From a virus: a DNA stretch of 27,808 nt. The position numbers and the translations under genes were made by a program. Every line of letters begins with the position of its first letter. Position 1 is the stretch's first letter. The stretch lies in the IMG/VR virus record IMGVR_UViG_3300034061_003499, positions 1 to 27,808 of that record; one strand, given 5' to 3'. The notes beneath the pieces were generated by a model. It searched no databases. It saw only the letters and a list, made by a program, of their open reading frames with translations, and was not told the origin of the DNA. Positions 8,190 to 27,531 of this stretch are shown here, one piece after another.

Positions 8190-8197
8190 TATTTATC
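8190..8197 (-). promoter_or_regulatory. NATAAATA late-promoter-like motif before the 764-aa gene
   Basis: GATAAATA lies four bases (CAAC) upstream of the ATG at 8185 and overlaps the TGA stop of the terminase gene. If it acts as a T4-type late promoter, the transcript would begin at or next to the start codon. Confidence 0.6.
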
Positions 8198-9743
8198 ATC
8201 CTATCACAGCAAAGAAGGGTAATGGGGCAATATACTCATCGTGGTCGCGAATTTGTTCTTCTAAATCATAGTGATAATCTGCTAATAACTGCAACATCCT
8301 AACAGTCAATAGTGACGCCATAACCAAATCGTCAGTTTCACCTACTTTTGCTTCATAACTACCACCCAATGCAACAAAAGTTTTTAACTCACTTATTAGA
8401 CTTTTGCTATGAATCGTCATTTTTTTACTTTCTAGCAAAGTTTTAAATTTGGCGCAGGCTGTTAATTTTACCTTATGTGTAGTGTTAAATCCTTTTCGTT
8501 TTTTGCCGGGTTCACTTAAAAAAATGCCAGGAATATTACTTTCTCCGTATTCTGCTAGAGATACTAGTGCAGCCTCACCTATACTATTATTTTCAATTGA
8601 GTAATAAATGTTGTCAGGTTCTTCAGTGCATTCAGCAATATACTTGTTTATTTGTGCTAACAACTTAACTTGATTGGGAATATCTGTTTTATTATGCTTC
8701 CATTCACCTATTTGAGTAGTCGAGTTAGCCTCAAATACTTGTATAGCAGCAGGGTCACTTCCTGTACCAAGACTTGGATCTAATGCAACTGCGTATATAT
8801 TTCCCTTTACTGGTTTTTTATACCAACGTACCTGTCCCATACGTGTAATGGGTTCTATACCTTCCAAGTCAATTAATGTGCTAGGATTTATCAATGTCTC
8901 ATCTGCAATTAAGAATTCACAACCAATTTCACGACGGAATCGATCATCGCCTAATTGGGCTTTCATTTCACTAGCCCATTTTTCATCTCTACCGGGTTGC
9001 TCACTATAATGCGCTCTATATGCTTTAAACCCATTAGTACCTAATTCAGTTGTGTTTCCGTATTCGTCAACACACTTGTTTGCTTGTTTCCAAATTAAGG
9101 CAAATTGGTCTTCGTCACTGTTTGGGGTACTAGTTATAATCGCTTTACCACCAGTAGCCAAAGTGGGCGTGATAGAGGTCCAGAATAACTCAGCAATGGA
9201 AGGTCTAACGAATGCAAACTCGTCTAAGTATAGCAATGAGATAGACATACCACGACCTGTATTTTCTGTCGTGGTTGCTGACACGATACGAGAACCGTTC
9301 TCGAAATCGAGGGACCCTTTGTTGTATGTGGTCACGCCCGCTTTGATGTGATCGGGGCAGTTTTCATATGCATAACGTATACGTTGCATAATTTCCTGCG
9401 CGCCTGTGTACTTGTGTGCTGCAATTAGAATTGTACTGTCCGGTACAAACATAGCATACCATAATAGATATCCGGCAGCACTTGTTGACTTACCACTTTG
9501 TCGAGGCATTAGGCTAATGCTATAGCGATAATTGTGATAAGTTTCAATTAATCGTTTCTGATATGGCCATGGATGATAGACCATGCTACCGCGTGTAGGG
9601 TGTTGTATGTAGAAGAAGTTATCCATAAAATATAGATAACCGGTTTTTGGATCACAACACTTAACAAAGTCATCCAACTCTTTCTGAGTTGCAAACTTTG
9701 TTTTTACATACGGTGTTTTAACTAATGATGCTGTTCCACTCAT
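8196..9743 (-). CDS. terL: Terminase large subunit, T4 gp17 type
   Basis: 515 aa, shorter than T4 gp17 (610 aa). It is the DNA-packaging motor, an ATPase plus headful nuclease. The ATPase half shows the HPWPYQKRL adenine-binding region (57-65), Walker A MPRQSGKST (79-87), Walker B LLYLDEFAF (170-178) and the coupling motif TSTPN near 204-208. The nuclease half shows the acidic residues expected of the RNase H-like fold: ALDPSLGTGSD, ENNSIG and GETDDLVMA. It sits between a small membrane-protein gene and the 764-aa late gene. The ATG follows AATAAATA plus five bases, with no Shine-Dalgarno; the motif overlaps the stop of the gene upstream. Confidence 0.96.
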   Translation of the reverse strand: MSGTASLVKTPYVKTKFATQKELDDFVKCCDPKTGYLYFMDNFFYIQHPTRGSMVYHPWPYQKRLIETYHNYRYSISLMPRQSGKSTSAAGYLLWYAMFVPDSTILIAAHKYTGAQEIMQRIRYAYENCPDHIKAGVTTYNKGSLDFENGSRIVSATTTENTGRGMSISLLYLDEFAFVRPSIAELFWTSITPTLATGGKAIITSTPNSDEDQFALIWKQANKCVDEYGNTTELGTNGFKAYRAHYSEQPGRDEKWASEMKAQLGDDRFRREIGCEFLIADETLINPSTLIDLEGIEPITRMGQVRWYKKPVKGNIYAVALDPSLGTGSDPAAIQVFEANSTTQIGEWKHNKTDIPNQVKLLAQINKYIAECTEEPDNIYYSIENNSIGEAALVSLAEYGESNIPGIFLSEPGKKRKGFNTTHKVKLTACAKFKTLLESKKMTIHSKSLISELKTFVALGGSYEAKVGETDDLVMASLLTVRMLQLLADYHYDLEEQIRDHDEYIAPLPFFAVIG

Positions 9744-12275: not shown

Positions 12276-12638
12276 TTATAATCCCTTAAAGGGTTTAATA
12301 GGACTTTGAACATTGGTACTATCTAATTCTTTACTCGAGGTGTCACCATTGTTTAAATCTTTAAACTCAATTCCTGCTGCTTTATAAGCCATTTTAAGCA
12401 TATTTGCTTCTACATCAGTATATGCATGTGCGGAGTTGAATTTTCCTACCCAACTTTCTTGATCTATCGTGGGTACAGTTGTGCCGTCTGTTTCTGCCAC
12501 TGCCATCATAACTCTATTAAGATCATAAAGTCTATCATAAGGAGCATCTGCAAATAGATGGAGTCCTTTTGTTGATTGCTGATATCGTTTGGGCATGGTT
12601 CCTCTTATATCTTCATTCATGAACTCTTTTGCTCTCAT
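12276..12638 (-). CDS. MRAKEF-type protein B, 120 aa, possible internal head protein
   Basis: Starts MRAKEFMNEDIRGTMPKRYQ and ends SPIKPFKGL. Both ends match the neighbouring 133-aa gene, while the middle differs, so they are diverged tandem paralogs. Both middles share a LYDLNRVMMAVA / LYRFGVAIAAV-like segment and a V-rich tail. The N-terminus resembles the capsid-targeting sequence of T4 internal proteins (a short peptide with EF and then Glu, removed by the prohead protease after hydrophobic-x-Glu). If so, F-M-N-E would be the cleavage site. The ATG overlaps the upstream stop (TAATG) and no Shine-Dalgarno is seen. Function otherwise unknown. Confidence 0.78.
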   Translation of the reverse strand: MRAKEFMNEDIRGTMPKRYQQSTKGLHLFADAPYDRLYDLNRVMMAVAETDGTTVPTIDQESWVGKFNSAHAYTDVEANMLKMAYKAAGIEFKDLNNGDTSSKELDSTNVQSPIKPFKGL

Positions 12639-13039
12639 TAGTATAATCCTTTAAAAGGTTTTACAGGTGATACTGTATGAGTGTCATCCATCTCATCACT
12701 ACCGGGCGTGCTTACAGGTTTTTTGCCATGTTTGTTAACTTTTGCTAAAGCCTTGTCTATTAGTTCACCTACATTAGGATCAAATGAACTAACGATTTGA
12801 TTCTCTCCCCATTCACTTTCAGATTTGAAGTTAGGTTCATTACCGTCCATGACATTATCTTCACGTCCTTGCTCCCCGCGCACGGCTGCAATGGCGACTC
12901 CAAACCTATATAAGTCATAAAAGTCTTGATTTTTTAATTCAGGTATAACAAACGTATTGGGTAGTGCTTTTGCTGCAACTTCCAAACCATCATGAATGGA
13001 ACTAAGTTTTTGTTCTTTGATAAATTCTTTTGCTCTCAT
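12638..13039 (-). CDS. MRAKEF-type protein A, 133 aa, possible internal head protein
   Basis: Starts MRAKEFIKEQKLSSIHDGLE and ends SPVKPFKGLY. The shared N- and C-terminal peptides with the 120-aa neighbour are encoded by synonymous but different codons, so selection acts on the peptides. F-I-K-E at residues 6-9 could be a prohead protease site as in the capsid-targeting peptide of T4 internal proteins. The centre has LYRFGVAIAAVRGEQGREDN followed by an Asn/Asp-rich linker. Its ATG overlaps the stop of the 287-aa structural gene (TAATG), so the three genes form a coupled unit. No other family is recognised. Confidence 0.78.
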   Translation of the reverse strand: MRAKEFIKEQKLSSIHDGLEVAAKALPNTFVIPELKNQDFYDLYRFGVAIAAVRGEQGREDNVMDGNEPNFKSESEWGENQIVSSFDPNVGELIDKALAKVNKHGKKPVSTPGSDEMDDTHTVSPVKPFKGLY

Positions 13040-25279: not shown

Positions 25280-26161
25280 TTAAAAACGATGAGTAATACC
25301 TACGCCAAGTTGTTGAACGTCTTGTGCTGAACCCAAACGATTAACGTTGCGATAAGCAGCAGACAATTCAGTACGCTTGCTCAATGCATAGTCGGCGCCC
25401 AATGAATATGCCTTAACACTGTCATTGTTTTGACCATAACTTGCCTTAGCAGTTACTGGTCCAAATGCGCGAGATACACCAACCAAGTTGCCCTGATTCT
25501 TTGCAACACCCTTGTTGTCGCTAAATGTGTATGAAACATTGAAGCCAAGTGCCTTAGTGCTCAAGCCCAAAACTGTGCTTGCTTCGGAGCCTTGCTCAAA
25601 ACGAGCAACAGCGCCATTAACACCTAACAATGTACCAGATACACCTACTACTGTAGCATCTTGACCAACTGATGCTAAAGAACGTTCATAAACTAAAGCA
25701 ACTCCCTTTAAAGGTGTTACTGAAACAAATACTGCGTCACCTAGACGTAGGTTACGAAGATTATGAACATCACCTGCAACACTTCCATACAATGTACCGA
25801 ATACGTCATTAGTAGTGATTGCTAAGAAGTGACTATGTACGTTACGACCTAGATCAATAGAACCAAAACTATTTGATACACCAACAGTGCCTTGACGATC
25901 ACCCAATTTTGTGCCAACGCCATCGATGGTGTTACCACGCAAACTGGTTTCAACAACTGCCTTTGCAGCTAGGCCTGAGCCCAATTTTTCAGTGACAGAT
26001 ACAGCAACGTTACTAGTTGGGTCCGTAACCATTTGCGTACTTTTAGTACCACCAACTTCGGTGTTGTCTCCGAAAAGACTAACCTTACCAGATAGTGATA
26101 CTTGTGCGCTTGCAATACTTGCCATTGACATAATTAAAGCAGCCAATATGATTTTCTTCAT
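25280..26161 (-). CDS. Outer-membrane porin of the betaproteobacterial type
   Basis: 293 aa with a signal peptide (MKKIILAALIMSMASIASA, cleavage before Gln20). The mature 274 residues alternate polar and apolar residues as in a beta barrel. Family marks are QVSLSGKVSLFGD at the start, NSFGSIDLGRNVHSHF (the FGxxxLGR element), LGADYALSKRTELSAAYRNV and a final THRF with the terminal Phe used by the Bam complex. Bacterial relatives are usually near 350 residues, so several surface loops must be shortened. AAAGGAAG precedes the ATG. In a phage it could block reinfection, replace the host porin or raise uptake; temperate lambdoid phages that carry porin genes are a precedent. Its own terminator makes it a self-contained unit. 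Confidence 0.9.
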   Translation of the reverse strand: MKKIILAALIMSMASIASAQVSLSGKVSLFGDNTEVGGTKSTQMVTDPTSNVAVSVTEKLGSGLAAKAVVETSLRGNTIDGVGTKLGDRQGTVGVSNSFGSIDLGRNVHSHFLAITTNDVFGTLYGSVAGDVHNLRNLRLGDAVFVSVTPLKGVALVYERSLASVGQDATVVGVSGTLLGVNGAVARFEQGSEASTVLGLSTKALGFNVSYTFSDNKGVAKNQGNLVGVSRAFGPVTAKASYGQNNDSVKAYSLGADYALSKRTELSAAYRNVNRLGSAQDVQQLGVGITHRF

Positions 26162-26610: not shown

Positions 26611-26639
26611 GTTTTGTTACAACTGTTACATTTTTAACC

Positions 26640-26667
26640 AAAAAGAAAGGCTCCTGAGAGCCTTTCT
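26640..26667 (-). terminator. Intrinsic terminator after the tmRNA
   Basis: A perfect 10-bp stem (AGAAAGGCTC / GAGCCTTTCT) with a CTGA/TCAG loop and a minus-strand T-run. It marks the 3' end of the tmRNA precursor. Confidence 0.92.
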
Positions 26668-26706
26668 GGTTTGTTTGGTTAGAAGGTCTTTCCTACCTCC
26701 CGAGGG

Positions 26707-26748
26707 TCAAGCCGCTAGGCTGAATACCTCGTCGTTAGCTGCGTTTGC
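26707..26748 (-). other. tmRNA tag-peptide reading frame ANAANDEVFSLAA
   Basis: From the resume codon GCA at 26748 the frame reads ANAANDEVFSLAA and stops with TGA at 26709-26707. The ANDE core and the LAA end match known degradation tags, with LAA recognised by ClpXP. The resume codon is preceded by ATAACT. The exact resume codon is inferred, since a GCA four codons on (ANDEVFSLAA preceded by GCT) offers a shorter alternative. Confidence 0.8.
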
Positions 26749-26835
26749 AGTTATAAGTTTTGCTTGATTTACGGTCATCGCCTACCGTGCTGTCCACTCT
26801 GTTACTCTTTACCCCGTCGAAACCTGGTCAGCCCC

Positions 26836-26893
26836 ATCAAAAGCACACTAGCGAACCTTGTCACATACCAGATGACTTTCTAAAGTACGCTTT
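26836..26893 (-). other. Intervening segment removed from permuted tmRNA
   Basis: Fifty-eight bases lie between the acceptor CCA (ending at 26894) and the mature 5' end of the coding piece (26835). In permuted tmRNAs this segment is excised, RNase P cutting at the coding-piece 5' end. No reading frame is seen in it. Confidence 0.75.
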
Positions 26894-26964
26894 TGGTGGA
26901 GCTGGGCGGAATCGAACCGCCGTCCGGAACACGTTTCTCTTTGCTTCATACAGCAATAATCTAC

Positions 26965-26993
26965 AGTGTATATTTATCTGATTACTTTTTCAA
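26965..26993 (-). promoter_or_regulatory. Promoter for the tmRNA, sigma70-like
   Basis: TTGAAA (26993-26988), 17-bp spacer, TACACT (26970-26965), placing the start near 26958, just ahead of the acceptor piece. The -35 lies within the end of the ADP-ribosyltransferase-like gene. Confidence 0.6.
26971..26978 (-). promoter_or_regulatory. NATAAATA late-promoter-like motif upstream of the tmRNA
   Basis: GATAAATA lies within the sigma70 spacer and contains the TAA stop of the upstream gene. It suggests the tmRNA may also be transcribed late in infection. Confidence 0.5.
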
Positions 26994-27531
26994 CCATTTC
27001 GGGCGTAATCTTTAATATAGGCAAACTCAATATAGTTTCGTTTGGGTTTGCCACTAACATAGAATTTATGCCCAAATATTTAATTGTTGGTCCATTCAAT
27101 GCTAACACTACCTCTGATTCTACAGGATTGTGCTTTAGTACTACACCTGCATCATCTGACCTCGCATAATCTATTGCCAATTGTTTGCGCGGGGTCCATG
27201 CACTAATTTGACTCTTAATATCTAAACCACCGTTGCTTATCTTATCTAACTGTGACTCGTTTTTTAGCATTAATCCACGATATACAGTGGGTAGATTTGA
27301 ATATGTTGCAATTACCTGATCAGGTAATACACTACGAATGGCATAAAACACGTTCGCATACGCATCCATAGTTTGTGGGTTAGCACTAAACAACCCAGTG
27401 TATATCCACTTCATTAAGTGCGGATAGGCTTCAACTATGCTCAATTCTCGCATACGTTTTTTTGCATTATCCAATGGCTCTATATGTTTAGTTATATAGG
27501 GACGTGGATTTTCTATTTCATTAATACGCAT
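26974..27531 (-). CDS. Probable ADP-ribosyltransferase, possibly packaged in the head
   Basis: 185 aa. The C-terminal 105 residues have the R-S-E layout of arginine-type ADP-ribosyltransferases: VYRGL with Arg85, ISAWTPRKQLAIDYA with Ser110 and the following helix, and ANPNETILSLP with Glu165 as candidate catalytic glutamate. The usual second Glu or Gln two residues before it is Pro here, so the site is atypical and activity is uncertain. The N-terminus MRINEIENPRP recalls short targeting peptides of T4 head-packaged proteins such as Alt, an ADP-ribosyltransferase injected with the DNA to modify RNA polymerase. The ATG follows CATAAATA plus four bases within an inverted repeat. It lies just upstream of the tmRNA, whose promoter overlaps its end. 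Confidence 0.6.
   Translation of the reverse strand: MRINEIENPRPYITKHIEPLDNAKKRMRELSIVEAYPHLMKWIYTGLFSANPQTMDAYANVFYAIRSVLPDQVIATYSNLPTVYRGLMLKNESQLDKISNGGLDIKSQISAWTPRKQLAIDYARSDDAGVVLKHNPVESEVVLALNGPTIKYLGINSMLVANPNETILSLPILKITPEMVEKVIR

Follow-up and report, generated by a model that had tools for sequence, protein, structure and literature searches.

A permuted two-piece tmRNA gene in a metagenomic jumbo-phage fragment and candidate protein genes in the spacer of its relatives

The window analysed here, the whole stretch of an IMG/VR virus record of 27,808 bases, carries a circularly permuted (two-piece) tmRNA gene on the minus strand, at about 26957-26642 according to ARAGORN and two Rfam models. 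We put the probability at roughly 0.87 that this locus is a working two-piece tmRNA gene of a jumbo T4-like phage, which would be transcribed from a promoter, processed, and used in ribosome rescue together with host factors. The original prediction, made from the window, of a phage-encoded, permuted tmRNA in two-piece form is supported; the gene is of the betaproteobacterial type and has a degradation-type tag. Taken alone, the window's copy is a further case of the already known two-piece tmRNA of phages (53 detected by ARAGORN among 18,146 phage genomes, plus that of the Methylophilales phage Melnitz; PMC9004378). The novelty is at the level of the group and not in the window's own spacer: the unusual part of the family is the segment between the two pieces, which holds an open reading frame (ORF) in many relatives, and this is invisible from the window alone.

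ARAGORN reported a permuted tmRNA at 26616-26986 with the tag ANAANDEVFSLAA, and matches were obtained to the Rfam models RF04321 (tmRNA_permuted; 26955-26707, 131.7 bits, E = 6.7e-26, cut-off 47) and RF01850 (beta_tmRNA; 27006-26642, 120.7 bits, E = 1.5e-36, cut-off 84), all on the minus strand, as are all parts of the gene given below. These calls confirm the permuted two-piece form, and the covariance-model search, proposed as a check, gave nothing against it. The standard one-piece model RF00023 was not among the gathering matches in the window, so the gene does not fall into the one-piece class, and the alpha tmRNA model reached only 44.5 bits, under its cut-off. The acceptor piece (the 3' tRNA-like part, 26894-26957, 5' end approximate), with CCA at 26896-26894, lies upstream of the coding, mRNA-like piece (26668-26835, 3' end approximate), and a spacer of 58 nt (26836-26893) separates them. 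The predicted boundaries (CCA end at 26894, spacer at 26893-26836, coding piece from 26835) were right; the strand had to be corrected to minus. Seven pairs, as predicted, join GGGGCTG at the start of the coding piece (26829-26835) to CAGCTCC (26898-26904) in the acceptor stem, and these include G3-U70, the alanine identity pair. The T arm, with a 5-bp stem, is at 26905-26921 by the Rfam match and by pairing in related genes. The tag reading frame with its stop occupies 26707-26748 by ARAGORN, and the gene closes with the intrinsic terminator that had been claimed (26639-26667; stem to T run 26667-26644), with a 10-bp stem, a 4-nt loop and a T run.

For comparison, loci were taken from the matches listed for an acceptor-piece pattern of this group and for a second pattern, biased to AAGGA after CCA, which gave more loci; 246 distinct tmRNA genes were parsed in all from the matches listed of both patterns. 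Four false parses (L460, L351, L298 and L333) were dropped. Parsing required at least 6 of 7 pairs in the acceptor stem, so that this measure is partly selected, whereas no such filter was applied to the T stem, helix 2 or PK1. In the 246 listed genes the partly selected acceptor stem is paired with hardly an exception, compensatory changes occur at positions 4-6, and G3-U70 never varies. The T stem pairs throughout, again with compensatory changes. Helix 2, which would join the two pieces, is formed in the window by 26926-26931 of the acceptor piece and 26810-26815 of the coding piece, and the two strands covary across related genes. In the clade set, 97.7% of its cells are paired, compared with a mean of 83.3% and a maximum of 87.3% in 2000 shuffles. 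In a second, more diverse gene set only 78.9% of cells are paired (54.9% in shuffles), probably due to length changes there. The pairing between the pieces, on which the original prediction could have failed, is thus supported by covariation. A PK1-type hairpin, ACGGT-AGGCGATG-ACCGT (26771-26788), has counterparts with compensatory changes among 59 related genes. It had been argued that the pseudoknots must be reduced in so short a coding half, but this is no peculiarity of the gene, which keeps the covarying PK1-type hairpin and can be aligned with the 3' domain of the beta model.

A tag was recognised in 227 of the 246 listed genes, and 195 of these 227 end in LAA, so the predicted degradation-type tag with an LAA end is conserved in relatives. 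In the other 19 the pattern recognised no tag; among 11 that were inspected, several are cut by the contig end and others have tags outside the reach of the pattern. The three-residue extension of the window's tag (ANA before ANDE) recurs in several relatives. Five permuted phage tmRNA genes (L014, L018, L024, L039 and L049) have unusually long predicted tags of 28-29 residues. The claim that the gene has its own promoter fared less evenly. On the window alone, the promoter-like pair TTGAAA-17-TACACT (26965-26993; 9 of 12) is weak and not above chance, with 12 such sites against 5.9 expected. However, a strong promoter-like pair was found in 41 of 122 related genes, and in 30 of these 41 the -10 hexamer is at -18 or -17 from the TGTATGAA motif; that of the window is at -18, so the conserved position lends the promoter comparative support.

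By its gene content, the window is a fragment of a T4-like jumbo myophage. Its T4-type large terminase (8196-9743, minus strand), which placed the phage and its sisters, has the jumbo phages PA5oct (50.6%) and Atu_ph07 (52.2% over 81%) as best isolated relatives; the UvsX-like and UvsY-like proteins point the same way, as does a weak gp32 match. Relatives with a terminase 81-89% identical to that of the window are abundant in IMG/VR, and one of the contigs has 524,565 bases. Downstream of the tmRNA gene lies a porin of Gram-negative type (25280-26161, minus strand) with an apparent signal peptide and a Porin_4 match (E = 6.5e-22). Its relatives, with 59-70% identity, were found in five other viral contigs, in three of which they adjoin a permuted tmRNA gene as in the window; none was found in genome contigs, plasmids, isolated phages or PDB. 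In the sister contig G040, the tmRNA gene (91,618-91,904), the porin (92,104-92,982) and a terminase 87% identical to that of the window (106,875-108,416) follow in the same order and with similar spacing. Among 43 terminase- or porin-related records, many of them short fragments, a permuted tmRNA was detected at E<=0.001 in 10 (8 above the cut-off), and a standard tmRNA above the RF00023 cut-off in none. Because of the synteny in G040 and in related jumbo-phage records, the gene can be regarded as an established phage gene, shared in synteny by a large group of jumbo phages from metagenomes. That the phage adapted it from its host, as had been proposed, is only plausible, given this settled place in the phage group.

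The locus would work as follows. A precursor would be transcribed from the gene's own promoter, and host tRNA-processing enzymes would cut it after the acceptor CCA and between TGAT and GGGG, so that the spacer hairpin is removed, while the acceptor stem and helix 2 would keep the two pieces joined. Host AlaRS would charge the RNA via G3-U70, host SmpB and EF-Tu would carry it to stalled ribosomes, and the tag ANAANDEVFSLAA would mark the nascent peptide for host proteases and make the ribosome available to the phage again. A search that was positive in 10 bacterial controls detected no SmpB in 26 related phage records; thus, the phage tmRNA probably uses host SmpB. The conservation of a tmRNA in jumbo phages would mean that infection is limited by ribosome rescue, for which these phages supply the RNA and apparently depend on the host for SmpB. 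In related phages, the removed spacer may double as a slot for small protein genes.

In the window, the spacer begins with a 10-bp stem (26893-26884 with 26849-26840) that prolongs the acceptor stem, and TGAT then precedes the coding piece; no ORF of 20 codons was found in it (26836-26893), and the window's copy thus does not have the form with a protein gene in the spacer. In many relatives, including the closest syntenic sister, G040, an ORF occupies the same slot. A ribosome-binding site (RBS) stands directly after the acceptor CCA, and the usual stop is the TGA of TGAT before GGG, where the 5' end of the coding piece is predicted to be processed. An ORF nearly fills the spacer in 90 of the 246 listed genes, a fraction inflated by the second, biased pattern, and 72 of the 90 end in the TGA of TGAT. 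In a less biased set of 107 listed genes, 9 such spacers were found with the RBS required (0.48 expected, maximum 3 in 300 shuffles) and 21 without that requirement (6.5 expected, maximum 13). This excess over shuffles indicates that spacer genes occur in a sizeable minority of the group, although some single calls will be due to chance.

The predicted proteins range from 23 aa (L145, in G040) and 64-65 aa (L146) to a GNAT-like protein of 122 aa (L152 and L153), for which the Pfam E-value is only 0.026. Three are above curated Pfam cut-offs: DUF2061 (L407, 3.5e-20), CxxCxxCC (L206, 1.3e-6, with L279 as a close relative) and PGDYG (L402, 3.4e-6). HNH-like proteins were found in spacers of 482 and 531 nt (L442 and L263), L442 with an E-value of 5e-4, just under the curated cut-off. 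The weak relatives of these two proteins are homing endonucleases of cyanophages. The HNH-like frames suggest that mobile endonuclease genes can use the spacer slot. No isolated phage gave a match to the spacer protein beginning MKNPLV. The families and pairs tested had a pN/pS of 0.17-0.34 in the ORF frame, compared with about 0.7-5 in the other frames, and changes in spacer ORFs concentrate at third codon positions; the conserved families are thus under frame-specific purifying selection. Coding evidence is weak for a cluster that lumps 17 very short membrane-type ORFs (pN/pS 0.76). In the L143 family, the ATG frame (pN/pS 0.34) runs beyond the spacer and stops within the coding piece.

The spacer is also paired in a conserved manner. 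Where an ORF fills the spacer (90 genes), the RBS lies within the 10 nt that follow CCA. Between these and the last 10 nt ahead of TGAT, 95.1% of cells are paired (80.1% in shuffles, maximum 82.9%), with uninterrupted runs that average 7.8 pairs (3.3 in shuffles, maximum 4.6), and in ORF-less spacers 91.8% of cells are paired (62.5% in shuffles). The RBS of the nested genes thus pairs with their stop-proximal codons. A Ser-Leu C-terminus was found in 13 of 35 nested families, and the sharing of C-termini by unrelated nested proteins can be explained by the spacer stem, which includes the last codons. A hairpin spacer that already ended in a stop codon may have become the gene slot. We hypothesize that folding of the precursor and initiation on the nested gene compete. 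In a broader proposal, which we hold tentatively and at somewhat less than even odds, the permuted tmRNA is a dual gene, whose single transcript serves both as rescue RNA and as mRNA. The nested RBS would lie in the helix that prolongs the acceptor stem, paired with the gene's own last codons, and the stop would lie at the processing site, so that the tmRNA's folding or maturation would be either coupled to translation of the nested gene or incompatible with it; the window would have the slot in its empty form. Provided that the nested genes are expressed, a housekeeping RNA gene also acts as a small gene cassette whose stop codon is already in place, and the proteins would be missed where the whole stretch is annotated as tmRNA. 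Whether translation of the nested frame controls tmRNA maturation becomes a testable question.

Other explanations of the locus can be considered. The gene might be a piece of a host tmRNA gene acquired through transduction, imprecise prophage excision or contig contamination, as tmRNA genes are common integration sites (PMC12595487) and the betaproteobacterial model fits the gene best. However, the gene has phage genes as neighbours, and its synteny in related jumbo-phage contigs already contradicts a host origin of this kind. Well over 100 viral contigs among the matches listed carry its acceptor-piece motif, and its 120.7 bits with the beta model are far from the 284-287 bits of genuine Cupriavidus copies, which indicates divergence. 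We regard such an origin as the least likely of the alternatives. Slightly less remote, though still very improbable, is a tmRNA-like decoy or inhibitor of host tmRNA or SmpB. Mycobacteriophage DS6A offers such a case: its tmRNA, which lacks a CDS, is reported to inhibit the endogenous one in E. coli (PMC11915505), and a phage RNA without a phage SmpB would titrate that of the host. However, the tag frame, its LAA end and the start context are conserved, and a decoy would not need them.

As for the relatives, their spacer ORFs might be chance open frames that end at a TGA kept for RNA reasons, in a spacer that is only a hairpin of variable length. The stop would indeed come free, as TGAT is kept in most ORF-less spacers and in Cupriavidus, and without the RBS requirement chance alone would fill nearly a third as many spacers as were seen. 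However, the excess of frames preceded by an RBS, the low pN/pS confined to the ORF frame and the three proteins above curated Pfam cut-offs are not expected of chance frames, and we judge this explanation highly unlikely, between the other two in probability. We therefore retain the reading of a working phage tmRNA gene, with protein genes in the spacer of some relatives.

The tmRNA of Melnitz (MZ577097; PMC9004378) is similar to that of the window in that it is permuted and encoded by a T4-like myophage, with a short tag and no role for an integrase. However, it fits the alpha model (106.7 bits) and the window's fits the beta model; it is followed by a glutamine riboswitch (match at 1002-1050, after the tmRNA body and outside the spacer), whereas the window has a terminator; and its spacer has an unannotated frame that runs into the coding piece, whereas that of the window has no such frame. 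The Melnitz frame (L461, about 682-864), in the annotated tmRNA of a phage that is in culture, has GGAG upstream, includes MFKWLSKTRLVV, and resembles the L143 frame.

We could find no earlier description of protein genes nested in a tmRNA spacer; the literature on genes or frames in the intervening segment yielded only one tRNA-Ala case, with limited coverage of subscription papers, so that an earlier report may exist. The 2025 tmRNA database, which holds 11,946 permuted sequences, describes one tRNA gene in an intervening sequence, as a unique feature (PMC11915505). This permuted tmRNA, of GCA-2688965, likewise has a gene inside, but there it is a tRNA-Ala gene, whereas in the relatives described here the genes encode proteins and are recurrent; the passages of the paper on this subject make no mention of protein genes in the intervening sequence. 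It does describe tmRNAs that are interrupted by a group I intron; some of these contain homing endonuclease genes and likewise place a protein gene in a segment absent from the mature tmRNA, and the two relatives of the window with an HNH endonuclease-like spacer gene may be compared with them. However, that intron is self-splicing and located in the T-loop, whereas here the gene lies in the spacer of a permuted gene, which would be removed by tRNA-type processing.

The bacterial control for the spacer design consisted of three Cupriavidus plasmid copies only. These match RF01850 and share with the window the permuted order, a hairpin spacer that ends in TGAT before GGG, and an ANDE-type tag; they differ in a spacer of 32 nt, compared with 58 nt, and in the tag ANDEKFALAA, to which the window's tag adds three residues. 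The three plasmids (L462, L463 and L464) carry complete permuted tmRNA genes, where the plasmid table, which holds no RNA genes, lists no feature.

Upstream of the window's tmRNA gene is a gene of 185 aa (26974-27531, minus strand) that has by eye the look of an ADP-ribosyltransferase (VYRG / SAWT / ESE); it has no Pfam or PHROGs match, and no relatives were found in viral contigs. Its product starts with MRINEIEN, the window proteins encoded at 12276-12638 and 12638-13039 start with MRAKEF, and the nested spacer proteins L413 and L184 start with MRIKEL, starts that may resemble the capsid-targeting leaders of T4 internal proteins.
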